From Arenibacter algicola (GTDB lineage Bacteria > Bacteroidota > Bacteroidia > Flavobacteriales > Flavobacteriaceae): DNA of 64,000 bases. Within the stretch, counting starts at the first letter, position 1, and each line of letters opens with the position of its first letter. Positions 11,562 to 25,219 of the stretch are shown piece by piece. The stretch is taken from NCBI RefSeq assembly GCF_018860365.1, contig NZ_JAHKPO010000024.1, positions 372,001-436,000 of the forward strand. The letters run 5' to 3'. The translations under genes were made by a program, and so were the position numbers. A model generated the notes under the pieces. That model made no database searches and was not told where the DNA came from. It saw nothing but the letters and a program-made list of their open reading frames with translations.

Positions 11562-12536
11562 ATGAGCAAAAAAGCCGCTTTCATAAAAGAACTAGCACTA
11601 CCCGTGGTGGCAGCACCCATGTTTCTTATATCTGGCCCACAATTGGTCATTGAATGCTGTAAAAATGGGATAGTGGGCACTTTTCCAGCACTCAATCAGC
11701 GTAGTACAGAGGGTTTTGAGGATTGGTTGGTAGAGATTAAAACCGAATTAAAGAAATATGAAGAGGAAACTGGAAAGAAAGCGGCCCCTTATGGCGTGAA
11801 TCTAATTGTTCACCCTACCAATCCCAGATTGGAAGCCGATTTAAAAGTCTGTATAAAGCATAAAGTCCCTCTAATAATTACCTCTTTAGGTGCTGTAGCC
11901 CAGGTAGTCCACGCCATACATAGTTATGGTGGCCTGGTGTTTCATGATATCATTAAAAAAAGACATGCGGAAAAAGCCGCCGAAGCTGGGGTAGACGGCT
12001 TAATACTTGTTTCCGCTGGTGCGGGAGGCCACGCCGGCACCATAAACCCCATGTCCTTAGTGGCAGAAATAAAGAAATTCTACGACAAAACCATTTTACT
12101 CTCTGGCTGTATCAGTACAGGACAGGATATTGCCTCGGCCTTGCAAATGGGAGCAGATCTCGCCTATATGGGCACTAGATTTATAAACACTAAAGAAAGT
12201 AAAGCCTCGGAGGAATATCGACAAATGATTATCAAGGCCGGGGCCAGTGATGTGGTCTATACCGCCGCAATATCAGGCGTACACGCCAACTTTTTGGGAG
12301 CCAGCCTAAAGGCTGCCGGAATTACAGAGGAAGATTTAAAAAAAGACAGAAAGATAGATTTTGGGAAAGAGCTCAATACGGAAGCCAAAGCGTGGAAAAC
12401 TATTTGGTCTGCCGGACAGGGAGTTACGACTATAGACAATGTAGAATCCGTATCAGAATTGGTGGCGAACCTAAAATCCGAATTTAAATCGGCTATTGAA
12501 GAGCAGATAAAGATTTTGGAAATTTATCCCAAATAG
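11562..12536 (+). CDS. Nitronate monooxygenase (2-nitropropane dioxygenase family)
   Basis: The 324-residue FMN-dependent TIM-barrel protein shows ALPVVAAPMFLISGPQLVIE, the FMN-binding LILVSAGAGGHAGTINP in the middle, and GCISTGQDIASALQMGADLAYMGTRFINTKES for the phosphate-binding end. Family members oxidise propionate-3-nitronate and other alkyl nitronates to carbonyl compounds. The gene is the last before the SusC region and shares a palindromic divergent promoter with the thioesterase. Confidence 0.9.
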   Translation: MSKKAAFIKELALPVVAAPMFLISGPQLVIECCKNGIVGTFPALNQRSTEGFEDWLVEIKTELKKYEEETGKKAAPYGVNLIVHPTNPRLEADLKVCIKHKVPLIITSLGAVAQVVHAIHSYGGLVFHDIIKKRHAEKAAEAGVDGLILVSAGAGGHAGTINPMSLVAEIKKFYDKTILLSGCISTGQDIASALQMGADLAYMGTRFINTKESKASEEYRQMIIKAGASDVVYTAAISGVHANFLGASLKAAGITEEDLKKDRKIDFGKELNTEAKAWKTIWSAGQGVTTIDNVESVSELVANLKSEFKSAIEEQIKILEIYPK

Positions 12537-12977
12537 TTACTTTCATCCCACTTTGTATTTTTATGCCGTTTATTTTTATAGTAGGCAACAATTTTTTTCT
12601 ATATCCAATCCTACTACCGCATTCCTATACAATAAATTAAAATACTTTTTGTACAAAAAACTTTACCCATTTAAACTTTTGCGGTAGTCAGAGTACATAA
12701 AATCGTACCACACTTACCTGTTATTTCCTACTCAAGTCCCATAAACACTATATGTTATACTCAAAAAACAAGGTTTTACACCCTCGCAAAATATTAAGTT
12801 AATTTATGTTAATAAATATTGATTCCATAATTAAATACCGTGTTAAATGGTCTTTTATAACTTTTAACACTAAATTTTTATAAAAATCCTATTACGTATA
12901 AAATATATTATTATATTCGTTAACGTTCACGTTAAAATTAACGTGTTATGTTTAATTAACTCATCAAACTTCAAATT
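12537..12977. other. 441-bp gene-free region upstream of susC
   Basis: AT-rich, with no credible coding frame. It holds a 9-bp inverted repeat ACTACCGCA (12613-12621) / TGCGGTAGT (12680-12688) nearly concentric with a 14-bp palindrome TTTTTGTACAAAAA (12646-12659), and near its end the LacI-type operators and a near-consensus -7 box TATGTTTA (12947-12954). Confidence 0.6.
12918..12945. promoter_or_regulatory. Overlapping LacI-type operators upstream of susC
   Basis: CGTTAACGTTCACG (12918-12931) is an imperfect palindrome around TTAACGTT. It runs into CACGTTAA-AA-TTAACGTG (12928-12945), a perfect 8-bp inverted repeat with 2-nt spacer. Both share the TTAACG half-site with the 24-bp palindrome at 23480-23503. 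A near-consensus -7 box TATGTTTA follows directly, 24 nt before the susC ATG, so a bound repressor would block initiation. The LacI gene at 17878-18927 is the obvious candidate. Confidence 0.6.
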
Positions 12978-15900
12978 ATGAAAAAACAGATTAATGAAGC
13001 AATTCATTTACAGCAGGGTATTCCTGTTTGGAAGAAAATCTTTATTCAGATTTTCTTTTTGTCCTTACTCACAGCTTTCAGTCCAGCCCTGGCGTTGAAC
13101 GGCCCCCCAACAGCAGTTCAACAGGAAGTTTCCGGTACGGTGACAGACGCGAATAACATGCCATTGCCTGGGGTTAGCGTAGTAGTTGTTGGCACCATTA
13201 AGGGGACCGTTACCGATTTTGATGGTAATTTTACCATTGCGGTTGAAAACGGCAAGATATTGGAATTCTCATATATTGGTATGAGCACCAAAAGAATGAC
13301 CGTTTCCGGTGCCAGTATGAATGTAGTATTGGAAGAGGATTCCCAAGCCTTGGACGAGGTGATAATTACTGGTTATGGAACGCAAAAAAAAGGAGAAGTA
13401 ACTGCAGCAATTTCTTCTGTTGATGCTAGCGCCATAGAAAGAATTGCAACTTCCAGCAGTATAGATGCCATTAAAGGACAGGTTGCAGGGGTAGACATCC
13501 AAGCCGATGGTGGACGACCAGGAGAAAACTCTACGGTTAGAATACGGGGAAGAAGATCTATTGGGGCTTCCAATGATCCGCTTTACGTTATAGATGGTAT
13601 TCCTCAAATAAGTGGAAACGAATCCGTAGCAGATATCAACCCCCAGGATATTGAATCCATGCAAATATTAAAAGATGCCGCGGCAACTGCAATTTATGGA
13701 TCACGAGGTGCCAACGGTGTAATCCTAATTTCTACTAAGCGTGGAAGGGTAGGAAAAACAAAGGTTACCTATAGCAGCCATATCGGTACTACCTCGGCCA
13801 CAAGGTTGGTAGACATGATGAATGGCGAAGAATTTGCAGATTTGAAAAGAGAATCCAGAAGATCTTCCTGGAATGGAACCATTCCAGATGATACGGCTGT
13901 TTTCCTAGACCCTGTTGAACTTAAATCCATTGAAGAAGGTAGATCCACAGATTGGTTGGACCTAGTGTTGAACAATGGGTGGCAGACCAATCACCAATTA
14001 GGGGTGAGCGGTGGCTCTGAGAACACTACTTTTAATGCTTCTTTAGGCTATTTCAATGAGCAAGGTATCATTAGCAATATGGATTTTGAACGTCTTACAG
14101 GAAGAATAAATCTTGATCACCGCATAAATGATATTTTTAAAGTTGGGATCTCATTCTCCATTTCAAACTCCATCCAAAATTGGGGATCCTCGGCGACCAT
14201 GGGAGAAGCCTTGGCCATTAATCCTTTGGGTATACCTTATGATGACGCTGGCAATCTTTTGTTCTTGCCAACCAATGACGGTATTAGGACCAATCCATTG
14301 AACGAACTGGTTGATGGAGCATATATTGATGAGCGTAAAACCACAAGGATATTCGCACCGGTATATCTAGATATCAACATCAGCCCAGAATTAAAATGGA
14401 CCACTACTTTCGGTCCCGATATACGGTATAGAAGACGCGGTCAATTTAGGGGCAGTTTAACAAATGATAACCGCGGAGGCCCAGGAGATGCTTCAATTGA
14501 GCACAATGACAATTTTGGGTATACGCTGGAAAACTTATTAACTTTCAACAAATCTATTACGGATAGTCAAAACCTGAAAGTTACCTTATTACAGAGTATC
14601 CAAAAATCACGTCAAGAAAATAGCTATACAGCCGTAGCAAACATCCCCTATGAATCACAACAATTTTACAATATGGGGTCTGCATCGGTAAAAGGCGATA
14701 TCACCTCGGGATTGGTGGAATGGACACTATCTTCCTTTATGGGTAGGGTTAATTATGATATAGATGGAAAATACCTCTTTCAAGGTTCGTTAAGGGCAGA
14801 TGGTTCCTCAAGACTGGCTGAAGGCAACAAATGGAACTACTTTCCTGGATTTTCAGCAGGTTGGAGATTATCCCAAGAAGACTTTTTAAGTGATTCCAAT
14901 ACATTGTCGGATTTAAAGCTACGAGCTTCCTATGGGGAAGTGGGCAACACTTCTGTAGATCCTTATCAGACTGCAGGTAGACTTGAAGGTACTGCCTATG
15001 CTTATGGGGAAACTACAGCTCTTGGATTTGGGCTTAATGAAATTCCCAATTCCGATTTGGGATGGGAAGTCTCCAAAACCTTTAACGTGGGTGTCGATTA
15101 TGGTTTCTTAAATGGCAGAATAAGCGGTGCATTGGATTGGTTCAGCACTAAAACCACCGATATTTTGTTAAATAGAAGTTTACCATATACCTCTGGATAT
15201 GAAAGTATCTTGCAGAATATTGGTGCAACTGCATCCTCAGGTTTGGAATTCAATATAAATGCCGATATACTTACTAATCCTGAAGGCCTTAATTGGGACA
15301 TAGGTTTCAACATTGCTGGCCTAAAAGAGGAAATTACCGAATTGGCCCTAAAAGATGAAAATGGCAATTCTATTGACGATGTTGGAAACCAGTGGTTTAT
15401 TGGCTCTCCGATCAACGTATTCTATGATTATGAAAAAGTTGGAATTTACCAAACATCCGAAGAAGCGCTGGCCAATACGGCAGAAGGAAAGGTGCCTGGT
15501 GAAATTAAATTGGGAGATCAGGATGGTGACGGAATCATCACTCCTGACGACCGAGTAATTTTGGGATCTGATGTACCTGATTTTTATGGAGGTATTACCA
15601 ACAATTTCTCCTACAAGGGATTGGATCTTAGCTTTTTCTTCTATTTTAGACAAGGGCAAATGATACGGTCCAGATTCCATGATAGCAATAACTCCCTATT
15701 TGGGCGCTATAACAATTTAGATGTAGACTATTGGACTATTGACAATCCTACCAATGCCAATCCTAGACCTAATGAAAATCAGGAAAGTCCTAGAAACGCA
15801 TCTACTTTATCATATTTTGATGGTAGTTATATAAAACTGCGTAATGTTACCTTGGGCTATAATTTCCCAAAATCCATAACGGAAAAGCTAAAAATGTCCA

Positions 15901-16061
15901 ACATAAGGCTGTATGTGGCAGGGCAGAACCTTTTTTCCATAACAGACTATGATACATTTGATCCCGAAACCTCTGAAACCGATCAGGAAGATGGAGGTCT
16001 ATCGTCCAGTACCATCCCTAGTAACAAAATGTTTTCTCTAGGATTGAACGTAACTTTTTAA
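12978..16061 (+). CDS. SusC/RagA-type TonB-linked outer-membrane transporter
   Basis: This 1027-residue protein has an N-terminal cytoplasmic extension and signal segment to about residue 41 (IFIQIFFLSLLTAFSPALAL). A carboxypeptidase-regulatory-like domain (VSGTVTDANNMPLPGVSVVV, 50-120) and a TonB box (ALDEVIITGYGTQKK, about 125-139) follow. The SusC plug has VRIRGRRSIGASNDPLYVIDG and AAATAIYGSRGANGVILISTKRG, and the barrel ends LGLNVTF. SusC forms the outer-membrane pore of a pedal-bin complex capped by SusD, importing oligosaccharides or glycosides. The susD gene starts 32 nt downstream, so they form an operon. LacI-type operators lie in its leader. Confidence 0.95.
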   Translation: MKKQINEAIHLQQGIPVWKKIFIQIFFLSLLTAFSPALALNGPPTAVQQEVSGTVTDANNMPLPGVSVVVVGTIKGTVTDFDGNFTIAVENGKILEFSYIGMSTKRMTVSGASMNVVLEEDSQALDEVIITGYGTQKKGEVTAAISSVDASAIERIATSSSIDAIKGQVAGVDIQADGGRPGENSTVRIRGRRSIGASNDPLYVIDGIPQISGNESVADINPQDIESMQILKDAAATAIYGSRGANGVILISTKRGRVGKTKVTYSSHIGTTSATRLVDMMNGEEFADLKRESRRSSWNGTIPDDTAVFLDPVELKSIEEGRSTDWLDLVLNNGWQTNHQLGVSGGSENTTFNASLGYFNEQGIISNMDFERLTGRINLDHRINDIFKVGISFSISNSIQNWGSSATMGEALAINPLGIPYDDAGNLLFLPTNDGIRTNPLNELVDGAYIDERKTTRIFAPVYLDINISPELKWTTTFGPDIRYRRRGQFRGSLTNDNRGGPGDASIEHNDNFGYTLENLLTFNKSITDSQNLKVTLLQSIQKSRQENSYTAVANIPYESQQFYNMGSASVKGDITSGLVEWTLSSFMGRVNYDIDGKYLFQGSLRADGSSRLAEGNKWNYFPGFSAGWRLSQEDFLSDSNTLSDLKLRASYGEVGNTSVDPYQTAGRLEGTAYAYGETTALGFGLNEIPNSDLGWEVSKTFNVGVDYGFLNGRISGALDWFSTKTTDILLNRSLPYTSGYESILQNIGATASSGLEFNINADILTNPEGLNWDIGFNIAGLKEEITELALKDENGNSIDDVGNQWFIGSPINVFYDYEKVGIYQTSEEALANTAEGKVPGEIKLGDQDGDGIITPDDRVILGSDVPDFYGGITNNFSYKGLDLSFFFYFRQGQMIRSRFHDSNNSLFGRYNNLDVDYWTIDNPTNANPRPNENQESPRNASTLSYFDGSYIKLRNVTLGYNFPKSITEKLKMSNIRLYVAGQNLFSITDYDTFDPETSETDQEDGGLSSSTIPSNKMFSLGLNVTF

Positions 16062-16110
16062 AGCCAAAAATCTTAAATAGATATATTATTAAATGTCTAA
16101 ACAAAATATT

Positions 16111-17769
16111 ATGAAAGGAATAACATATAAAATCTTGGCTTTATCACTGATGGTTAGCATAACCTCCTGTGATAAATTCCTAGAAGAAGAGTTGGTGACC
16201 GATGTCTCATCAGCTTCATATTACACTACCGAGAAAGGGTTTGGTGATGCCGTGAACGCCACATACGCCCTACTAAAACCCTTTTATGGGCAAGAACGTG
16301 GATTTGCAATGACAACTATGGGCTCTGATATCTGGACAAATGGTTCCGATGGTGGCCATAAGGTATTTAATACCTATGACGTAGGGCTCAACAGTGCCGA
16401 AAGTTATGTAAGGGATGCTTGGAGAGACTGGTACAAAGGTATCAACCAAGCAAATGCCGTTATAGGTCGCTCTGAAGGTTTGGAAATGGATGAGACCATT
16501 AAAAATATTCGCTTGGCCGAAGTGAGATTTCTAAGGGCACTCTACTATTTTGACTTAACAAATACCTACGGCGACGTACATTTAAGCCTAGAGGAGACAG
16601 TAGGAATAGAAATAGAGGCCAATAAGACCGCAAGGGCAGAAATCTATAGCCAGGCAATTGTGCCAGATCTTGAATTTGCCATAGCCAATCTGCCCGCCAC
16701 ACAATCTCCTTACGGTAGGGCCACGAAAGCCGCTGCTGAATTTTTGTTGGCAAAAGCACTCTTGACAAGAAGTTATACTTCATGGGCCGAAAGTACTGAT
16801 GCCTCTAGGGCAGAAACTTTGATGACCAGTGTAATAACCAACTACGGTTTTTCCCTTTTGGATAATTATGCCGACCTATGGGACATAAACAATCAGGAAA
16901 ACAGTGAAATTGTTTGGAACATTACAAATTCCAAGGCCCAAGTTGACGACGGTACGGACGATTTCGGACACCGCGGACACTTGTATTTCTTAATGGAGTA
17001 TGATGTTCTTCGGGGCCTGACCAGAGATGTAGAAAATGGAAGGCCATGGAAAAGACACCGCCCTACGGACTTTATGTTGGGGCTTTGGGACCGAAACCAA
17101 GACAGCAGATACGATGACTCTTTTAAACATGTATGGTACGCCAATAAGGATGAGCCCGCTACTGTAGCCAGTGGAAGTGAACCTGCAAGGGCTGCGCTTT
17201 CAATCGGTGATACTGCAGTATATATTCCTGGACCTGGAAAAGATATTGATTGGCCACAGTCCTTACAAGACACCAAACCATATATGACGATAACCAATGA
17301 CGAATATACAGAAAGGTTGTTCCCCTCATTGAACAAATGGATAGACCCGACCCGTCCTGACAGACAACATACACCAGGACAGCGCGATTTTGTACTTATG
17401 CGTTTGGCCGATGCCTATTTGATACGTGCCGAAGCAAGATTAAAACAAAGCGATCCAGGTGGAGCGGCAGATGATATTAATATGGTAAGGGTAAGGGCTG
17501 CTGTACCAGGAATGGAAACAGCCATGCAAATTACGGGAGCTGATGTTGATCTAGATTTTATCTTGGACGAAAGGGCACGTGAACTGGCTGGGGAAGGACA
17601 CCGTTGGTGGGATTTGGTAAGAACAGGCAAACTAGTTGAAAGAACTACTTTGCACAACCCACAAGCAGCTCCAAACATTCAGGAATATCATACACTGAGA
17701 CCTATACCTCAAGATCAAATAGACAGAAGCTTGGGAGGTTATCCACAAAATCCAGGATATCCACAATAA
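16111..17769 (+). CDS. SusD/RagB-type glycan-binding lipoprotein
   Basis: A 552-residue surface lipoprotein. The ATG at 16111 gives a compact signal MKGITYKILALSLMVSITSC with the lipid-anchored Cys at 20; an in-frame ATG at 16093 adds six residues. Then comes DKFLEEELVTDVSSASYYTT, the SusD N-terminal signature, tetratricopeptide-like helices (IRLAEVRFLRALYYFDLTN), and the C-terminal ERARELAGEGHRWWDLVRTG motif. It binds the glycan at the cell surface and hands it to SusC. It forms an operon with susC, ended by a strong terminator. No glycoside hydrolase or sulfatase is encoded next to it, so glycan identity cannot be inferred from neighbours except through the DUF1080 operon opposite. Confidence 0.94.
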   Translation: MKGITYKILALSLMVSITSCDKFLEEELVTDVSSASYYTTEKGFGDAVNATYALLKPFYGQERGFAMTTMGSDIWTNGSDGGHKVFNTYDVGLNSAESYVRDAWRDWYKGINQANAVIGRSEGLEMDETIKNIRLAEVRFLRALYYFDLTNTYGDVHLSLEETVGIEIEANKTARAEIYSQAIVPDLEFAIANLPATQSPYGRATKAAAEFLLAKALLTRSYTSWAESTDASRAETLMTSVITNYGFSLLDNYADLWDINNQENSEIVWNITNSKAQVDDGTDDFGHRGHLYFLMEYDVLRGLTRDVENGRPWKRHRPTDFMLGLWDRNQDSRYDDSFKHVWYANKDEPATVASGSEPARAALSIGDTAVYIPGPGKDIDWPQSLQDTKPYMTITNDEYTERLFPSLNKWIDPTRPDRQHTPGQRDFVLMRLADAYLIRAEARLKQSDPGGAADDINMVRVRAAVPGMETAMQITGADVDLDFILDERARELAGEGHRWWDLVRTGKLVERTTLHNPQAAPNIQEYHTLRPIPQDQIDRSLGGYPQNPGYPQ

Positions 17770-17797
17770 TAAAAAGTAGCCATTGAGTTAGTATCAA

Positions 17798-17827
17798 AAT
17801 AGGCCTCCAAATATTTGGAGGCCTATT
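17798..17827 (+). terminator. Terminator after susD
   Basis: A 14-bp perfect stem (AATAGGCCTCCAAA / TTTGGAGGCCTATT) with a 2-nt centre, followed by ATTTTTG, 28 nt after the susD stop. It also separates susCD from the convergent lacI gene. Confidence 0.85.
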
Positions 17828-17877
17828 ATTTTTGTTGATATTTAAACGCAACTTAAGTGATAGAGGGAGATGGCTCT

Positions 17878-18927
17878 CTAAAGCGCATCACTATTCTCCT
17901 GCACAATTATTTCTACTGGGACATCTATATTTAAATCTGAGGAATCCTGTTCCGTAAGGAATTTAAACATTCCCTTAATAGCTGTATACCCTTGAAATTC
18001 CGGTTTTTGATTGATTAAAAAATCAATCTCCTGCCTTCTTAGGCAGTCCAAGTTATTTTGATGCAGATCAAAGCCCACCACGGAAACATTTGAAACATTA
18101 TAGGTCTTAAGAATTTCCGGAATTAAATAAGATCTTGCGTTGGTTACAAAAATCCCTTTTCGCCTAGGGTCTTTGAACCAGTTTTCTATTTCAGGATTAA
18201 TTTCGAAAGGACGATCAATAGGATGATTAATGGTCATAATGGAAATTGGCTTTCCCTTAAAATTCGTTGCAAAAAACTCCCTAAAGCCATTTTCCCTTTG
18301 TTGATTATTGGCATGCAAGCCCCTCTCCGTTACAATATTGATTACAAAATAGAGGCCCTCGGTCCCGACCAGCCCATGTAAAAGCCTAGCTCCCACCATT
18401 CCGGCCTTATGTGAATTCTGCCGAATAAAACAGGAAGGGTAATCCAGTTTGATTTCCGTATCCATAAAGACTACAGGAATATTTTTGGCTTTGGCCTTAC
18501 TTAACAGATTGTTGCATTCCACCATAAAAAATGGAACCGTGACCAAGGCGTCATAATTTTTATTGGTAATGGCGTCTCCCAATTTTATAAAGGAAAAAGG
18601 ATCGGTAAAATAGTAATATGAGACAAGGATGCCCATCTCGCTTAATTCTTCCACAGCCTTTTCGATACCTTTTTTGGGCAGCTCCCAATAGCTCCAATTA
18701 CTGGAGACCTCCGGTATAAGAACGGCTATTTTTAATTTCTTGCGTCCTGCCAAATTAAGGCGACTGGCCACCGTATTCTTTTTATATCCGGTTTCCTTGA
18801 TTATAGCCTTTATCTTGTCCCGTGTGGCATTGGATACCCCGGGCCTATTATGCAACACCCTATCTACGGTGCCAATGGAGACATTGGCCAGTTTGGCAAT
18901 TTGTTTAATTCCGATAAGATTGTCCAT
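17878..18927 (-). CDS. LacI-family transcriptional regulator with sugar-binding domain
   Basis: The 349-residue protein has a LacI helix-turn-helix at residues 6-30 (IKQIAKLANVSIGTVDRVLHNR), the hinge region near 55-63 (VASRLNLAGRKK), then a type I periplasmic-binding-protein-like effector domain (LKIAVLIPEVSSNWSYW, VVFMDTEI, GLYFVINIVTERGLHANNQQRENGF, SVVGFDLHQN). It most likely binds a sugar or glycoside and controls both susCD and the DUF1080 operon through the shared TTAACGTTAA-type sites. It follows the last gene of that operon by 70 nt but has its own -7 box, so it may be both independently and jointly transcribed. Confidence 0.92.
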   Translation of the reverse strand: MDNLIGIKQIAKLANVSIGTVDRVLHNRPGVSNATRDKIKAIIKETGYKKNTVASRLNLAGRKKLKIAVLIPEVSSNWSYWELPKKGIEKAVEELSEMGILVSYYYFTDPFSFIKLGDAITNKNYDALVTVPFFMVECNNLLSKAKAKNIPVVFMDTEIKLDYPSCFIRQNSHKAGMVGARLLHGLVGTEGLYFVINIVTERGLHANNQQRENGFREFFATNFKGKPISIMTINHPIDRPFEINPEIENWFKDPRRKGIFVTNARSYLIPEILKTYNVSNVSVVGFDLHQNNLDCLRRQEIDFLINQKPEFQGYTAIKGMFKFLTEQDSSDLNIDVPVEIIVQENSDAL

Positions 18928-18975
18928 AGGCCAGCTTCCTTAAATTAGCATTATAAGGGCAATATAAAATGGCGG

Positions 18976-18983
18976 CAAAATTA
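18976..18983 (-). promoter_or_regulatory. Candidate -7 box for the lacI gene
   Basis: The minus strand reads TAATTTTG, an exact TAnnTTTG match, 48 nt upstream of the regulator's ATG. No TTAACG half-site is seen here, so autoregulation through this box is not indicated. Confidence 0.4.
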
Positions 18984-18997
18984 CAACTTGATTCTGT

Positions 18998-19603
18998 TTA
19001 AAGCTTGCCTAAAACTATTTTTCTAAAGTGTATCTCCATTTCCCTGCCCGGATGTAATTGCAGCCCAACGGGACCTTGCAGATTGGCATTATCCATAGTA
19101 TAGTTCATGACTTCCTCTCCATTTAACCAAACCGTATACCTATTGTTCACTGCACGGGCCTTGATAGTATTCCACCCCTTTAAACGAAGTAATTTATTTA
19201 CATTCTTCGCTTCCACAGGATAACTGGCTCCTGGAACATATGGCGACCCGGTCATATCCCTTTTTAGTGAACCCGATATGCCAATTTGAATCTGAGGATT
19301 ATTTTTATCCTCTCCCCGCATAAATATGCCAGAATCTATGTTCCCACTTATCATTTTAAAATCCATTTGCACCACAAAGTCATTATAACTCTCATTGGTC
19401 CAAAGAATGGAACCCTTTTTTCCGGGATTGTTCTTGGCTATTATTTTTCCATTTTTTACGGTCCATTCCCCACCATCCGGTATTTTCCATGACTCCAATG
19501 TTTTACCATTGAACAAGCTGTTCATGGATGCCTTTTCCGAATCCTGGGCCATTCCACTTTTCCCAAAAGTTAGAAAAAGCAATAAAACCGCAACATATTT
19601 CAT
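18998..19603 (-). CDS. DUF1080 (3-keto-disaccharide hydrolase family) protein, single domain
   Basis: A 201-residue exported protein with signal peptide MKYVAVLLLFLTFGKSGMAQ. The start at 19603 lies 7 nt past the stop of the upstream gene. One DUF1080 jelly-roll domain is seen: SLFNGKTLESWKIPDGGEWTVK, then FVVQMDFKMISGNIDSGIFMRG, and the closing GPVGLQLHPGREMEIHFRKI. DUF1080 (Pfam 3-keto-disaccharide hydrolase) members cleave glycosides oxidised at C3. It is the last gene of the four-gene operon that contains a matching oxidoreductase. Periplasmic location is likely. Confidence 0.87.
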   Translation of the reverse strand: MKYVAVLLLFLTFGKSGMAQDSEKASMNSLFNGKTLESWKIPDGGEWTVKNGKIIAKNNPGKKGSILWTNESYNDFVVQMDFKMISGNIDSGIFMRGEDKNNPQIQIGISGSLKRDMTGSPYVPGASYPVEAKNVNKLLRLKGWNTIKARAVNNRYTVWLNGEEVMNYTMDNANLQGPVGLQLHPGREMEIHFRKIVLGKL

Positions 19604-19610
19604 AGTAGTA

Positions 19611-20675
19611 TTAATTTTTGCTAAAATCAGAAAAATATCCATTCAGTGAATCTTGTGACAATTGCTCGCCGTTGTGCACCAAGATGGTATATTTGAAAGT
19701 TACGGATTCCCCTTTGGCCAAAGTAAAATTCAATTTTTCCTTGCCTTCCGAAAACACCTCTTGTCCCAATGGATTGGCTGCAAATAGTCCGTAACCCCGT
19801 GCATGCCAATAGGTAGGATATCCCACATTGTTGGGATGATCCATTATGGTTACCGAAACAGGCTCTTCAGCAATCTTTCCGTATAAAGTAGTCCATTTGG
19901 CCCGTGTTCCCCAGGCCTCTTCACCAGTCTTCCCTTCACTGGTTAAATAATTACCATTAACCCCTTCGTTGTTCAGAGCTTTAACCTCGGTTGGTATCCC
20001 ATTGGCATCCATGAATATAGAAGGTTGGTCAGAAGGAAGTTCCAGCCCTCGAGTTACCCGGATAGCAATCATTCCCTCTTTGTTATCTTTAAAGGAAACA
20101 TCTTCCATGGCTTTCAAGGTAGTAGTTCTAACAATTTTCCTAGTATCCCCGTTTTGACTAAAGGAAAATTCCGTTGTTTCCTCCAATAGCTTGGTATTAT
20201 CTGAAGTATCCCAGCTAGCTTTGGTAACCAGAGTACCCTTTTCCGCATTGGTTTCCACGATCTGCCTATGGTTTATGGTTCCATATTTATGTTTATCCTC
20301 TTCTTTTATGGCATAGGAATTGTTCCAAAAATCCAACCCGTTTACATCTCCGTAATTAAACCATATTCCCACATGGTGCGGATGATCTACCCTTTCCCCC
20401 TCTACTGGCTCTATAGGGAACCCCCGGGTTATTTTTTTACCGCTTTTGGTAATTACCGGATAGAGCACGGGTTTAGGTGTTTTTCCGTCGTATACATAGC
20501 TTGTGAATAAATTCCCGTCTATTAGTACGTCTACCTTTTGATTCTTTTCATCTTTGTTAAAGGTAACTTGATCCGTCTTTTGTGAAGGTTCCTCAACATT
20601 ACCCTTTTCCACCTTATCCTTACAGGAAGAAATTACCATAAGAATGAGCAAACAACTAATATTGATCTTATTCAT
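19611..20675 (-). CDS. PmoA-like (DUF6807) lipoprotein
   Basis: A 354-residue lipoprotein: signal MNKINISCLLILMVISSC, lipid Cys at 18. The body matches the DUF6807 family, formerly labelled methane oxygenase PmoA. Motifs are HPHHVGIWFNYGDVNGLDFWNNS with a His-rich core and the closing YPTYWHARGYGLFAANPLG. It has no transmembrane helices or copper-site pattern of a membrane methane monooxygenase, so the PmoA name should not be taken as function. The family recurs in sugar loci with Gfo/Idh/MocA and DUF1080 genes; a role in handling the glycoside or its keto product is inference. The start is placed 19 nt past the upstream stop. Confidence 0.82.
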   Translation of the reverse strand: MNKINISCLLILMVISSCKDKVEKGNVEEPSQKTDQVTFNKDEKNQKVDVLIDGNLFTSYVYDGKTPKPVLYPVITKSGKKITRGFPIEPVEGERVDHPHHVGIWFNYGDVNGLDFWNNSYAIKEEDKHKYGTINHRQIVETNAEKGTLVTKASWDTSDNTKLLEETTEFSFSQNGDTRKIVRTTTLKAMEDVSFKDNKEGMIAIRVTRGLELPSDQPSIFMDANGIPTEVKALNNEGVNGNYLTSEGKTGEEAWGTRAKWTTLYGKIAEEPVSVTIMDHPNNVGYPTYWHARGYGLFAANPLGQEVFSEGKEKLNFTLAKGESVTFKYTILVHNGEQLSQDSLNGYFSDFSKN

Positions 20676-20694
20676 GCTATTATCGATTTTAGGA

Positions 20695-22053
20695 TTAATA
20701 TTTGAAAACCTTGTCACCGGCCAAAACATCCTGAGCCTTCTCATCAAAAGTGGATTTTAATCCTGTCCTAAGGGCCGCGGTGGTCATAATGTTGGCAATA
20801 GAATGATTGTAAGCCGCATCTATTGGACCATTTGTTTCCTTTCTGCTCCTTACACATTCCATCCAATTCAACATATGCAATGAGGTCATATTATCGGCAC
20901 CGGTGTCAGCGGAGGTAACCACTTGTACGGCACTATCCGACAGATCAAATTCTGGTAATTTATTCTCTTGCATTCCCATTTTATTGGCATGGGAAGCATT
21001 TAACCCACCATTGGGACTCACCTTATTTGTGTCCAGATTTAATTCTCCCCCATTGGAATAATAAATCTCCTTGGTGCCACCTGCGGAATTGGTAAACCTG
21101 GACGAATATACCACTTGAAAACCTTTGGAAAGGTCATCCAATGGGCCATAATCGAATACCGCAGTCATGGTATCGTAATTTTTTCTTCCATCTTTCCAAA
21201 GATAGATTCCACCATTGGCTGCAACACTCCTTGGATGGTTTAGTCCCGTAAACCAGTGTACGGTATCAATCTGGTGGGACATCCATTGTCCTGGAATTCC
21301 TGAAGAAAAAGGCCAAAACAATCTATACTCCAAATACTTTCTAGGATCCCAGGCCTCATAAGGTCTGTTCATTAAATAACGCTTCCAATCGGTATCCGAT
21401 TCTTTGATCTGACTGGTCAATTCAGGCAAGCGCCATCTGTCCGGTTGATTTACGTTCCAACTCATTTCAACCATTACGATATCCCCAAATTTACCTGATT
21501 TAATATAGTCGTTGGCAGCATGGTAATTGCGTCCACTTCGCCTTTGGGAACCTATTTGAAACACGATACCGGAATCTTCGACCGCCTTTTTACCCACCCT
21601 TGCATCGTCCATGGTTTCTGCAAATGGTTTTTCTACGTAAATATCCTTTTTTGCATTGGCAGCTTGAACGGTGTGTAGGGCATGTTGGAAATCTGGAGTA
21701 GAAATTATAACAGCATCAATTTTATTTTCCTCGTACATTTCATCATGGTTTCTCCAAACCCTCATCTTGTCCCCGGTTTTCTCCTTCAAATAGGCAGCTC
21801 CTTCGTCCCTTCTTCGGTTCCAAATATCGGAAACCCCCACAATTTCAAAGTTCTGTTTTTTATGATGCCCCAAAAATGCAGGAATCAAGGCTCCTTTGGC
21901 CCTATTGGAAAAACCCGCAATTCCTACCCTTACCCGGTCATTGGCACCAATGATCTTACTGTAGCTTTTTGCACTCATAGAGTTGATTCCCAAGGCTATG
22001 CCTCCTGAGGCCAATGCTGTTTTCTTTATGAAATTTCTACGTCCTTCACCCAT
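20695..22053 (-). CDS. Tat-exported Gfo/Idh/MocA family oxidoreductase
   Basis: A 452-residue protein. A twin-arginine signal GRRNFIKKTALASGGIALG lies at residues 4-22, then a Rossmann domain (VRVGIAGFSNRAKGALIP, VGVSDIWNRRRDEG), the catalytic Lys in DIYVEKPFAETMDDA, and the C-terminal domain with MSHQIDTVHWFTG carrying the Asp/His pair. The family oxidises sugar hydroxyls using a tightly bound nicotinamide cofactor, as in glucose-fructose oxidoreductase, which is also Tat-exported already loaded with NADP. Here it likely makes the 3-keto glycoside for the DUF1080 partners. The start at 22053 follows the upstream stop by 28 nt and puts the RR at positions 5-6. Confidence 0.9.
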   Translation of the reverse strand: MGEGRRNFIKKTALASGGIALGINSMSAKSYSKIIGANDRVRVGIAGFSNRAKGALIPAFLGHHKKQNFEIVGVSDIWNRRRDEGAAYLKEKTGDKMRVWRNHDEMYEENKIDAVIISTPDFQHALHTVQAANAKKDIYVEKPFAETMDDARVGKKAVEDSGIVFQIGSQRRSGRNYHAANDYIKSGKFGDIVMVEMSWNVNQPDRWRLPELTSQIKESDTDWKRYLMNRPYEAWDPRKYLEYRLFWPFSSGIPGQWMSHQIDTVHWFTGLNHPRSVAANGGIYLWKDGRKNYDTMTAVFDYGPLDDLSKGFQVVYSSRFTNSAGGTKEIYYSNGGELNLDTNKVSPNGGLNASHANKMGMQENKLPEFDLSDSAVQVVTSADTGADNMTSLHMLNWMECVRSRKETNGPIDAAYNHSIANIMTTAALRTGLKSTFDEKAQDVLAGDKVFKY

Positions 22054-22081
22054 AATCTTAATATTTTGAATTGAACCTTTT

Positions 22082-23464
22082 TTAAAACTCACGAATTTTT
22101 ATACTTCTAAAGGAAACATGGTCTCCATGATCCTGCAAAAGGATCCTACCTGCAGGTATTGTTCCAAAATTTTCCCATTTGTCATACTTGCTTTTTTCGA
22201 CCAGAGCCTTAAAGGTCTGGCTAAACCGGTCGTATTCCACCACCTTCACATTATTCAACCAATGTTCAACATGGCCTCCCCTTACAACTATACGGGCATT
22301 GTTCCATTTATCTACCCCATTGAAGTTCTTGCCCCTAGAATTTTCAAAGTTCTCTGCACGGATCAGGTCATATAGGGATCCCACGGTCCTATTGCCATTT
22401 TTTCCCATTTTGGCATCTGGATGTTCCTTATCATCCAACACCTGAAACTCCAACCCTATGGCAGAACCCTGTCCCATATTGAGCCCTGGATCTACAAAAT
22501 ATTTAATCCCGCTATTGGCCCCTTTGGTCAACTTAAAATCTACACTTAATTCAAAATTGCTAAACGCCTCCGTTGTTACAATGTCCCCACCATTTCTGGA
22601 TTCGGCACCATCAGATGACAGAACACTTAGTGTTCCCTCTTCCATATTCCAACCTTTCTCTGGAAACGCATTCAGTTTGGCACCACGCCATCCTTCCGAT
22701 GTTTTGCCGTCCCATAATAATCTCCAGCCTTTTCTAATTTCATCAGAAGTAAGCTGATTTTGCAAATAGCTTATTTCCGGGGCATATACGGCCACCTGCT
22801 TACGCTCCTTCTCCAAATCAGTGGTTTTGATCCTAATGTTTTTCCATTTCACTATTTTGCCCTCCAAACTGGCATCGTGAATGGAATGCACCTGAAAAGC
22901 AATAAATCCTTTGGCAGTAACATCGTCTACCAAGTTGGCACACTGTATCCCATTTATCCAAGTTCTAATATTGTTGCCGATAGCCTCAATTCTATAATGG
23001 TTCCATTCCCCAGGTTTAAAAGCATTTTGTCCTTTATTGTTTCTGGACAAAGGATATAACCAGCCCCTTCTTGCCTCATCATATATACCCCCAGCCCATT
23101 TTCTATCACTGGTTTCAATTTCACATTGGTATCCATGCACCCTTCCATCCATATATTCGGGAAGGCTCAAACTCCTAAATTGAACTCCGGAATTGAGTCC
23201 GTTTTCCACAAATACATCAAACTCCAAAATAAAATCGCCATAGGCCTTTTTGGTAGCCATAAAACTATTAGGTGTATTCAACCTAGAGGTTCCTATCATT
23301 TCCCCATTTTCAATTTTATACTTCGCGTTTCCGTTCAATTGTTCAAAATTGGAGAAATCCTTACCGTTAAAAAGTGTTTCCCACCCATCTTGGGCAAGAG
23401 CATTGAAAAAGGTAAAGTGAAGCAGTATTACCAAGGTTATCCTGGTCAGTTTCCTATTAGCCAT
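22082..23464 (-). CDS. Two-domain DUF1080 (3-keto-glycoside hydrolase family) protein
   Basis: A 460-residue exported protein (signal [25 protein letters not shown]) with two tandem DUF1080 jelly-roll domains. Domain 1 runs from about 26 to 215 ([53 protein letters not shown]). Domain 2 runs from about 244 to 460 ([60 protein letters not shown]). The duplicated NSGxxxR/F motif marks the sugar-binding face. It is the first gene of the operon and carries the 24-bp palindrome on its promoter. It is likely the main keto-glycoside cleaving enzyme; whether both domains are active is open. Confidence 0.88.
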
Positions 23465-23479
23465 AACATTTAAGTATTA

Positions 23480-23526
23480 ATTTTCGTTAACGTTAACGAA
23501 AATATAAAAATATGTTGAAACAACAA
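23480..23526 (-). promoter_or_regulatory. Promoter and 24-bp palindromic operator of the DUF1080 operon
   Basis: A perfect 24-bp palindrome at 23480-23503, ATTTTCGTTAAC/GTTAACGAAAAT, has the central CpG typical of LacI sites. On the minus strand a near-consensus -7 box TATTTTCG (23504-23497) lies inside its upstream edge, with TTG at 23526-23524, 19 nt further up. The operator thus covers the -7 box and start site, 16 nt before the ATG, fitting repression by steric block. Confidence 0.7.
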
Positions 23527-23734
23527 CATATTAATTGACAAATTCATATATATAATTTGCAATAAACATGAATTAAGTAAATTTTTCAACCATTTTATGG
23601 CATATTCTAAAAAATTTGAGTCTCTATTCTACCGTCCTTTAATATCCTGGCAACCAATCTTTGAAAGAATATAGGATAGCCTTATCTTGTAGCTTTATAC
23701 TTGTAATTCTACAACCCCATTTAGAACACTATCT

Positions 23735-24697
23735 ATGCCCATAATCCATTCCAAATACAACCCCCCATTCCCCTTTAAAAGTGGACATTTTTCCACTATC
23801 TATTCAGGATTAATTAGAAAGGTCAATGGTCTAAACCAACAACGGGAACGCTTAGAGCTTAGTGATGGGGATTTTTTGGATTTGGATTGGAGCTACTCCT
23901 CCCGGCCATCTACAGGAGTGGTAATACTTTTACACGGTTTGGAAGGCAATGCCCAAAGACCTTATATTACCGGTAGTGCGAAACAGTTCAATGCCATTGG
24001 TATAGATGCCTGTGCCGTTAACTATAGAGGTTGCAGTGGTGAAACCAATCGTCTTTTCCGATCTTATCATTCCGGGGCCACGGAAGATCTGGAAGCCGTA
24101 ATTGACCATATACTAAAAGAAAAAAAATACGCTTCTATTTACTTAAAGGGATTTAGCCTGGGCGGCAATATGACCTTAAAATACTTGGGAGAAGGAAGGT
24201 CGATTCCCAAGGAAATAAAAGGGGCGATAGCAGTATCTGTACCATGCAATTTGCACAGTTCATTATTAGAACTTCTGAAACCTAAAAATATGATGTATGC
24301 CAAACGGTTTAAGAAACATCTTATAGAAAAACTGCGGTCTAAACAGCTTCTTTTTCCAGACGAGATAAGCGATTTGGATATTGCAAAGATAAACACCCTA
24401 AAAGATTTCGATGACATCTATACCAGTAGGGCTCATGGATTTAAGGATGCCATTGATTATTACCAAAAATCCAGTTCACTACAATTTATCCATTCGATTA
24501 GAACCCCTACCCTGATTATAAATGCACAAAATGATTCCTTTTTAGGGGACCAATGTTATCCCTACAAGGAAGCCGAACAAAACAATTCCGTACATTTTGA
24601 ACTTCCCTTGTATGGCGGTCATGTAGGGTTTTATGGTCAAAAAAATATCACCTATACTGAAAAAAGGGCATTAAAATTCGTTGAAGAATTATATTAA
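23735..24697 (+). CDS. YheT-family alpha/beta hydrolase
   Basis: This 320-residue protein starts NPPFPFKSGHFSTIYSGLIRK, the YheT N-terminus. The hydrolase core has VVILLHGLEGNAQRPYI (oxyanion His-Gly), the nucleophile elbow KGFSLGGNMTLKYLG (Ser near 144), an acid residue in INAQNDSFLG and the catalytic His in YGGHVGFYG. This is the YheT/Abhd1-3 group of cytoplasmic esterases with unknown natural substrate. It is a single gene upstream of the cytochrome c gene (42-nt gap), so the two may be co-transcribed. Confidence 0.88.
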   Translation: MPIIHSKYNPPFPFKSGHFSTIYSGLIRKVNGLNQQRERLELSDGDFLDLDWSYSSRPSTGVVILLHGLEGNAQRPYITGSAKQFNAIGIDACAVNYRGCSGETNRLFRSYHSGATEDLEAVIDHILKEKKYASIYLKGFSLGGNMTLKYLGEGRSIPKEIKGAIAVSVPCNLHSSLLELLKPKNMMYAKRFKKHLIEKLRSKQLLFPDEISDLDIAKINTLKDFDDIYTSRAHGFKDAIDYYQKSSSLQFIHSIRTPTLIINAQNDSFLGDQCYPYKEAEQNNSVHFELPLYGGHVGFYGQKNITYTEKRALKFVEELY

Positions 24698-24739
24698 AAT
24701 AATCTATTTATTATCTTCGTGAAATAATATACCAAAACG

Positions 24740-25219
24740 ATGAGAAAATTATTTATCCCTTTGGCCTTAGCTGGATTAATCCTTAGCTGTGGCGAAAAAA
24801 AAGAAGAAAAGAAGGAAGGTTTTGAAATGAACCGTACCAAAAAAGAAGTCAAGGCGGAACCTGTAAGTGAGGGAGTACCTGTAGACATGAGCAACAAAGG
24901 TGTTGGCCCTATTAAATCTGTAACTTTCGCAGATGAAATAGATACCGAGCTGGCTGCCAAAGGACAAAAGACATTCAGTACTATTTGTGTGGCCTGCCAT
25001 ATGGCCGAACAACGTTTAATTGGACCGGCACTAAAAGGTGTTTTTGAAAGAAGAAGCCCTGAATGGGTTATGAACATGATCTTGAACCCAGATGGTATGC
25101 TTAAGGAAGACCCTATAGCTAAGGCCTTATTGAAGGAGTATAACAATGCCGTTATGTTAAACCAGAATCTTTCCGAAGAGGATGCACGTGCGGTAGCAGA
25201 GTATTTAAGGACCTTATAG
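24740..25219 (+). CDS. Lipoprotein c-type cytochrome
   Basis: A 159-residue protein with lipoprotein signal MRKLFIPLALAGLILSC, a charged linker rich in Lys/Glu, and one class I cytochrome c domain from about 70. The haem motif is CVACH, with the distal Met probably in MNMILNPDGM; it ends LSEEDARAVAEYLRTL. From memory this layout resembles the small cytochrome found at the head of flavobacterial nos clusters, but no nosZ is present here. It probably carries electrons in the periplasm, anchored by its lipid. A terminator follows. Confidence 0.85.
   Translation: MRKLFIPLALAGLILSCGEKKEEKKEGFEMNRTKKEVKAEPVSEGVPVDMSNKGVGPIKSVTFADEIDTELAAKGQKTFSTICVACHMAEQRLIGPALKGVFERRSPEWVMNMILNPDGMLKEDPIAKALLKEYNNAVMLNQNLSEEDARAVAEYLRTL

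Follow-up and report, generated by a model that had tools for sequence, protein, structure and literature searches.

A tandem-DUF1080 locus of Arenibacter algicola as the probable uptake and cleavage half of a LacI-type glucuronide regulon

What does a flavobacterial locus import and cleave when it combines a SusC/SusD pair with DUF1080 proteins, an oxidoreductase of the Gfo/Idh/MocA family (Gfo) and a LacI-family repressor? The question is raised by 64,000 nucleotides (nt) of Arenibacter algicola DNA (contig NZ_JAHKPO010000024.1, positions 372,001 to 436,000), here called the window. On balance, we favour a glucuronide regulon under LacI repression, with oxidative release of glucuronate, and read the locus as its half for uptake and cleavage. 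The regulon and its link to uronates are very probable; a glucuronide as the substrate, suggested by the genomic context, is likely, and the full oxidative mechanism, with catalytic steps deduced by homology, is somewhat favoured. The link is carried by a palindromic operator: exact matches to CGTTAACGTTNACG are confined to three places of the 5.75-Mb genome. Two of them precede susC and the DUF1080 operon; the third, C8:170011 on another contig, separates uxuA from the genes dctPQM for a tripartite ATP-independent periplasmic (TRAP) transporter and lies 13 nt upstream of dctP.

According to Pfam and NCBIfam, the plus strand carries susC and susD, and the minus strand a five-gene run of tandem DUF1080, Gfo/Idh/MocA, DUF6807, single-domain DUF1080 and lacI, which is the layout given by an earlier reading of this DNA from its letters alone (the sequence-only reading). 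The features, in window coordinates (ORF, open reading frame; aa, amino acids), are the following.

12918-12931, no strand: operator O1, CGTTAACGTTCACG, a putative LacI site 46 nt before the susC start
12978-16061, plus: susC, TonB-dependent outer-membrane importer (TIGR04056, 890 bits versus a cut-off of 368)
16093-17769, plus: susD, surface glycan-binding lipoprotein (PF07980, E 7e-38)
17878-18927, minus: lacI, repressor with a Peripla_BP_4 sensor domain (PF00356 and PF13407), the presumed operator binder
18998-19603 (ORF to 19642), minus: small DUF1080 protein with one domain (PF06439, E 4e-33)
19611-20675 (ORF to 20747), minus: DUF6807 protein (PF14100, E 1e-79)
20695-22053 (ORF to 22092), minus: Gfo/Idh/MocA oxidoreductase (PF01408) with Tat-type and EKP motifs (Tat, twin-arginine translocation)
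22082-23464, minus: tandem DUF1080 protein with two domains, 460 aa (PF06439, two stretches)
23485-23498, no strand: operator O2, CGTTAACGTTAACG, a perfect palindrome within TTTTCGTTAACGTTAACGAAAA, a putative LacI site 20 nt before the tandem DUF1080 start

The genes and operators are direct observations. The ATG starts at 23464, 22053, 20675 and 19603, shorter than the listed ORFs, were chosen by eye from the sequence; they place the four enzyme genes 28, 19 and 7 nt apart and lacI 70 nt further on, and the minus-strand run looks like one transcription unit. The operon had been described as DUF1080-Gfo-PmoA-DUF1080; it does encode two DUF1080 proteins, but the 460-aa one carries two domains by Pfam, which makes three in all. 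Among the ten proteins scanned (11562-25216), no match to glycoside hydrolase, sulfatase or inner-membrane transporter families was found, in agreement with the sequence-only reading. Of the marks of a polysaccharide utilisation locus, the susC-susD pair is thus present, and a canonical polysaccharide lyase or glycoside hydrolase is absent among the same ten proteins. The transporter described as missing is encoded elsewhere behind the same operator: a system without an inner-membrane transporter was rejected, since the third exact operator marks dctPQM.

The two palindromes that had been pointed out before susC and before the operon are real: with up to two mismatches, the window contains 6 strand matches, compared with a mean of 0.41 and a largest count of 3 in 100 dinucleotide shuffles, and a weaker palindrome (12930-12943) overlaps O1. 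At one mismatch in its own genome, the operator pattern is not enriched over the reversed control (13 versus 19 strand matches). Two of the four one-mismatch sites are intragenic, one lies before a feoB-like gene and one before the gene for a second Tat-type Gfo. The operator as a common word was rejected, as CGTTAACGTTAACG occurs exactly 33 times (forward count) in 18 Arenibacter genomes, versus 4 times for the reversed pattern. An extra exact site in genome G011, which lacks the LacI, falls within a gene resembling that of a ribosomal protein by eye, and one in G016 within a dehydrogenase-like gene; both are treated as chance. G016 has one further extra exact site, which precedes the gene for the second Tat-type Gfo. 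As an observation apart, the feoB-like case is a one-mismatch palindrome some 70 nt upstream of a gene that by eye resembles feoB (G000:C19:285245; L042:1501-1514).

Within the genus, we compared the same 18 genomes. All 18 have dctM (89-100% identity) and 12 have the LacI orthologue (72-100%). An exact operator is situated between uxuA and dctP in 12 of the 12 genomes with LacI and in none of the six without (Fisher P 5.4e-5, ignoring shared descent). The latter keep the order uxuB-uxuA-dctPQM, and the best match upstream of their dctP has 5-6 mismatches. The twelve uxuA-dctP operators are identical by construction, having been found by exact search, and their 100% conservation against 75-79% in the flanks is not used as evidence. 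The second Tat-type Gfo (G000:C28:121136-122470) occurs, at E <= 1e-150, in the same twelve genomes and in no others, with an operator of at most one mismatch some 200-250 nt upstream in all 12; it is probably a fourth regulon member, on another contig. The palindromic operator is therefore common to several promoters and co-occurs with the regulator, the pattern expected of a LacI regulon. The closest genomes in a three-protein tree are those of A. palladensis and A. echinorum, and the tandem DUF1080 protein of the window is 97% identical to the A. echinorum copy.

What stands behind the third operator is suggested by its neighbours. On that contig, uxuB-uxuA precede dctPQM, and the only uxaC of the genome is located in the same cluster, about 14 kb away. 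NCBIfam scores are above the curated cut-offs for UxaC (600 versus 387 bits), UxuB (315 versus 281) and UxuA (434 versus 200), and DctP and DctM exceed those of their subfamily models; genes of the glucuronate pathway are thus found together with a transporter behind the shared operator. The shared-operator evidence in Arenibacter covers dctPQM, with uxaC and uxuAB as neighbours only. The mannonate branch is the glucuronate route, not that of galacturonate, and its linkage here (UxuB, UxuA) therefore points to glucuronate. A different hexuronate could instead be set free (galacturonate, 4-O-methyl-glucuronate or an unsaturated uronate), UxaC and the TRAP transporter then handling both acids; we regard this as distinctly improbable. 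UxaC is well established to take both glucuronate and galacturonate. An Algoriphagus transporter, TRAP UxuPQM-II, is proposed in the consulted excerpts of PMC5507952 to carry both acids, but the branch linked in Arenibacter, at the scores given above, is that of mannonate, where the altronate branch was not searched for in the genome. The glucuronate cluster (L065:65-7701, L147:16213-17226) also has a DUF6807 gene of its own, two more Gfo-type genes, SusC/D-like genes and another LacI.

Beyond the genus, we considered the best 80 of 380 related loci from a scan of genome contigs, 10 from Arenibacter and 70 from elsewhere; they are kin by descent, and the counts are not independent. All seven genes (susC, susD, lacI, small DUF1080, DUF6807, Gfo and tandem DUF1080) occur in 22 of the 80. 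An operator with at most one mismatch is present upstream of the tandem DUF1080 gene in 35 of the 37 loci with lacI and in one of the 26 without (Fisher 3.5e-14, ignoring descent); outside these two groups are 16 loci whose right flanks are too short for judging lacI, five of which have an exact operator, and L123, with 11 nt upstream. Base-shuffled upstream sequences came within one mismatch of the operator in 0 of 3950 cases. L143, the sole lacI-less locus with an operator, has an exact site and a fragmentary lacI (L143:14520-14932), and may possibly be expressed without regulation. Before susC, an operator with at most one mismatch is found in 20 of the 26 loci that have both susC and lacI. 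The co-occurrence of operator and LacI is observed directly. As for the single LacI-controlled locus that had been proposed, one LacI unit over both halves stands, but the regulon extends to the TRAP transporter and probably to the second Tat-type Gfo, on other contigs.

Clustering of the neighbouring genes in the 80 loci by Pfam and NCBIfam brought out glucuronate isomerase, mannonate oxidoreductase, mannonate dehydratase and TRAP DctP, DctQ and DctM as recurrent, in addition to a recurrent PfkB kinase that resembles 2-keto-3-deoxygluconate (KDG) kinases at scores below their curated cut-offs. At least one uronate gene (uxaC, uxuA, uxuB, kdgK or TRAP) occurs in 45 of the 70 non-Arenibacter loci. 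Among the 46 of these with at least 15 kb of sequence, 32 have such a gene and 16 have two or more kinds; for the 28 that carry lacI, the count is 21. The uronate genes are divergent from the tandem DUF1080 gene, with the operator between them, in 21 loci, and L089 unites dctPQM, kdgK, uxaC, uxuA, uxuB, the DUF1080 and DUF6807 genes, lacI and susCD in one stretch. This synteny with glucuronate genes in other genera is, again, a plain observation. Uronate linkage of any tandem DUF1080 was rejected: in 27 control loci with paralogous or more distant tandem DUF1080 genes (the copy on contig C11 of the same genome included), an exact operator occurs in 0 of 27, and L062 is the only one with clear uronate genes, with a weak uxuA match in L196. 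The linkage therefore characterises this particular clade of tandem DUF1080 proteins. All 17 Arenibacter paralogue copies examined, a set that excludes the G017 copy, stand beside a different Gfo and an aldose epimerase.

These results bear on the substrates put forward by the sequence-only reading, neutral glycosides such as trehalose, sucrose and aryl glycosides, which are set aside here because the operator and the neighbourhood point to glucuronides. Under that alternative, the periplasm would be the site where neutral glycosides (glucosides among them) are oxidised at C3 and cleaved, and the uronate genes would share the regulator for general reasons only; we deem it improbable. DUF1080 relatives, whether characterised or so far proposed, do act on neutral 3-keto-glycosides, 3-keto-trehalose in the case of BT2157 and, for a hydrolase proposed in the consulted part of PMC9007349, 3'-keto-lactose, and the C-terminal domain of the tandem DUF1080 protein aligns with that family. 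Set against this are the operator common with dctPQM in 12 of 12 genomes and the linkage to uronate or TRAP genes outside Arenibacter; moreover, the paralogous tandem DUF1080 beside another Gfo and an aldose epimerase, which lacks such linkage, is the better candidate for neutral substrates.

If the substrate is a glucuronide, how might it be opened? Two assignments of the sequence-only reading hold up, namely the Tat-type signal of the Gfo and the membership of the DUF1080 proteins in the family acting on 3-keto-glycosides. The Gfo N-terminus, MGEGRRNFIKK, is of the Tat type, and the motifs RRx[FLIVM] and EKP are present in 42 of the 42 orthologues of at least 400 aa. The DUF1080 proteins of the operon are placed by their sequences in the 3-keto-glycoside lyase family: the C-terminal domain of the tandem protein aligns with 8tda_A (E 7e-34), 4jqt_A aligns over almost the entire protein (E 4e-172), and the C-terminal motif E-Q-LD-HPDA-R-SLYD, common to solved 3-keto-glycoside lyase-family proteins, occurs in 72 of 79 tandem orthologues. 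The small DUF1080 protein is probably secreted. For 3-keto-glycoside lyases, the consulted excerpts of PMC13273386 give the order C3 oxidation, beta-elimination, hydration and re-reduction, and describe the His275 variant of a B. thetaiotaomicron lyase as hydration-deficient. A histidine in a Q-x-H context is found in the C-terminal domain of 78 of the 79 tandem proteins, in the N-terminal domain of 75 of the 79 and in all 32 small DUF1080 proteins. We take the His275 lyase to be a DUF1080 protein, and its histidine to be that of the Q-D-H-G motif, in part from the numbering of the construct.

The third protein of the operon had been called PmoA-like. This is a naming relic: the PmoA family was not matched, the sole Pfam match of the protein is PF14100 (DUF6807), and 'PmoA' is the former Pfam name of DUF6807. 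Among 35 orthologues, DHPHH is kept in 34 and ANPLG in 33. Cys18 is invariant in the 27 rows of our alignment A1 (the window and 26 others, with L111 and L113 dropped because of translation stops and L072, L074, L082, L083, L087, L100 and L123 omitted), and a crude lipobox pattern is present in 17 of the 35 ORFs; DUF6807 is possibly a lipoprotein. A profile search for sequence relatives of DUF6807 in the PDB found none (best E 0.72), and our literature search on DUF6807 returned passing mention only. Co-occurrence and two fusions connect the protein with the small DUF1080. Both are present in 34 loci, the small DUF1080 without DUF6807 in none, and DUF6807 without a detectable full small DUF1080 in two (L066, where it is partial, and L086, at a contig end); in Maribacter algarum (L083:12753-14369) and in an uncultured Flavobacteriaceae (L123:2584-4191), one reading frame encodes both.

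From these elements we infer the substrate, the inducer and the catalytic steps as follows. SusCD would pass a conjugate of glucuronic acid through the outer membrane. C3 of the glucuronosyl unit would then be oxidised in the periplasm by the Tat-exported Gfo (20695-22053), perhaps together with the second Gfo, by means of tightly bound NAD; the DUF1080 domains would expel the aglycone by elimination and add water to the enone so formed, and a Gfo would then re-reduce C3, so that free glucuronate leaves with no net redox change. The route of oxidation and cleavage drawn by the sequence-only reading is retained in this scheme, with the addition of the re-reduction, which it had left out. The enzymes further along the pathway take unmodified glucuronate, so the 3-keto stage should be undone before import. 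Glucose-fructose oxidoreductase holds its NAD tightly, and one Gfo of this kind would likewise serve, with no need for a soluble cofactor in the periplasm. The role left for DUF6807 and the small DUF1080 would be that of an accessory pair, possibly dedicated to certain linkages. Import of the glucuronate would fall to the TRAP transporter dctPQM, and UxaC, UxuB and UxuA would convert it to 2-keto-3-deoxygluconate. LacI would repress at the operators until its inducer, perhaps glucuronate or an early product, is bound. We suggest only tentatively that this is a glucuronidase-free, redox-neutral periplasmic route, in which the tandem DUF1080 works with a Gfo outside the named glycoside 3-dehydrogenases and DUF6807 is a new catalytic partner.

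Several findings weigh against the glucuronide regulon and its oxidative chemistry. L105 and L108 have lacI but no operator directly before the tandem DUF1080 gene, their sites lying elsewhere in the stretch. Non-Arenibacter loci with at least 15 kb of sequence lack a uronate gene in 14 of 46 cases, and in 7 of the 28 with lacI. A uronate gene within 10 kb is found in 0 of the 10 Arenibacter loci, so that the uronate link in Arenibacter rests on the operator; uxaC is present in all 18 genomes of the genus, with or without LacI, and the use of glucuronate as such is thus independent of the locus. SusCD, DUF6807 and the small DUF1080 are jointly missing in four Arenibacter (A. arenosicollis, P308M17, A. 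catalasegens and G005), which requires at least two changes on the tree; these four retain the tandem DUF1080, the Gfo, LacI and the operator. By eye, A. arenosicollis has a remnant of the small DUF1080, and F26102 keeps SusCD with a DUF6807 fragment only and the small DUF1080 absent. We read the tandem DUF1080 and the Gfo as the core, and SusCD, DUF6807 and the small DUF1080 as a dispensable module for particular glucuronides. The Gfo is outside the BT_2158 glycoside 3-dehydrogenase family (88.6 bits versus a cut-off of 750 with the NCBI family model) and, by the same kind of model, outside that of BT_2159 (33.2 versus 650). Finally, L089 and L098 keep the tandem DUF1080, DUF6807 and small DUF1080 genes with no Gfo gene beside them.

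The two latter loci would suit a locus without any oxidative step, in which DUF1080 and DUF6807 are conventional glucuronide hydrolases or sugar binders and the Gfo targets the aglycone or another sugar for epimerisation or modification. The small DUF1080, which matches solved relatives weakly (best E 2.5e-16), and DUF6807, for which the sequence search found no solved relative, could be accommodated likewise. Even so, we think this unlikely: the Gfo orthologue (cluster 1) accompanies the tandem DUF1080 in 44 of the 80 loci, with its Tat-type and EKP motifs invariant as described, a Gfo of another subfamily (cluster 10) does so in 17, and the known chemistry of DUF1080 works on 3-keto substrates.

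How does an oxidative glucuronide regulon compare with known systems? Nasseri and colleagues are said to have described in Nature in 2024 an oxidative four-step glycoside cleavage for the BT2157-BT2160 region of B. thetaiotaomicron, with a Gfo dehydrogenase and a DUF1080 lyase/hydratase. The Arenibacter locus has in common with that system the Gfo and DUF1080 partners, the Tat-type motif on the Gfo, and the C-terminal-domain (72/79) and Q-x-H (78/79) motifs; it differs by its Gfo outside the BT_2158 family, the tandem DUF1080, the extra DUF6807 and a linkage to glucuronate instead of neutral sugars. Regulons with a 'GH109' protein also bear comparison, GH109 being a Gfo-family assignment. The UxuR2 regulon of Algoriphagus marincola HL-49 (PMC5507952, consulted in part) likewise combines a LacI-family regulator, glucuronate catabolic genes, TRAP UxuPQM-II and such a protein; a term search of its main text found no DUF1080, and the consulted portion names no cleavage chemistry. 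For lactose use in Caulobacter crescentus (PMC9007349, consulted in part), periplasmic C3 oxidation followed by DUF1080 cleavage is proposed from fitness data; there, in contrast, the oxidase is the membrane-bound LacABC, the sugar is neutral, and the consulted portion describes no LacI, TRAP or uronate module. UxuR (BT1434), the predicted glucuronate regulator of B. thetaiotaomicron (PMC3878776, consulted in part), is also of the LacI family and tied to the glucuronate pathway, but that portion names no DUF1080, Gfo or DUF6807 members.

The chemistry family is already known, and for Algoriphagus a LacI regulon that unites glucuronate genes with a TRAP transporter and a GH109 protein has been put forward (PMC5507952, in its consulted portion). 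Within the reach of our searches, three elements are new: the linkage of the tandem-DUF1080/Gfo/DUF6807 operon to glucuronate uptake, an operator whose sequence is defined, and the connection of DUF6807 with the small DUF1080. A literature search pairing 'glucuronide' with 'DUF1080' found nothing, subscription journals being mostly outside that search; in a further search, no title or opening of an abstract among the matches listed dealt with oxidative glucuronide cleavage, and the main text of PMC11036162 mentions neither DUF1080 nor PmoA. Glucuronides occur widely, in polysaccharides of algae and plants as well as in conjugated drugs and steroids, and hydrolytic glucuronidases are the enzymes normally held responsible for cleaving them. 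By its gene set, the regulon predicts a different glucuronide-cleaving chemistry across many marine Flavobacteriaceae. It offers a substrate class for this tandem-DUF1080 clade, a working context for DUF6807 and an operator for testing the prediction, and the solved full-length relative of the tandem DUF1080 protein (4jqt) opens the question to crystallography.

Some observations fall beside these subjects. The whole 5.75-Mb genome contains 24 DUF1080 domain matches, which suggests several parallel oxidative glycoside systems. SusC exists in two allele classes at the same locus among eight Arenibacter (window 12978-16061; L066-L075), with 69-73% identity between and 86-97% within the classes; A. 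palladensis and A. troitsensis, sister species in a tree of neighbouring genes, differ in SusC class, which suggests exchange of the module. Downstream of dctM on contig C8 of the same genome (L065:13048-19660), there are genes for a phosphonoacetate hydrolase (PhnA, above the NCBIfam cut-off), an aldehyde dehydrogenase, a class-V aminotransferase, a major facilitator superfamily transporter and a DAO oxidoreductase, a set that looks like 2-aminoethylphosphonate breakdown beside the glucuronate cluster.

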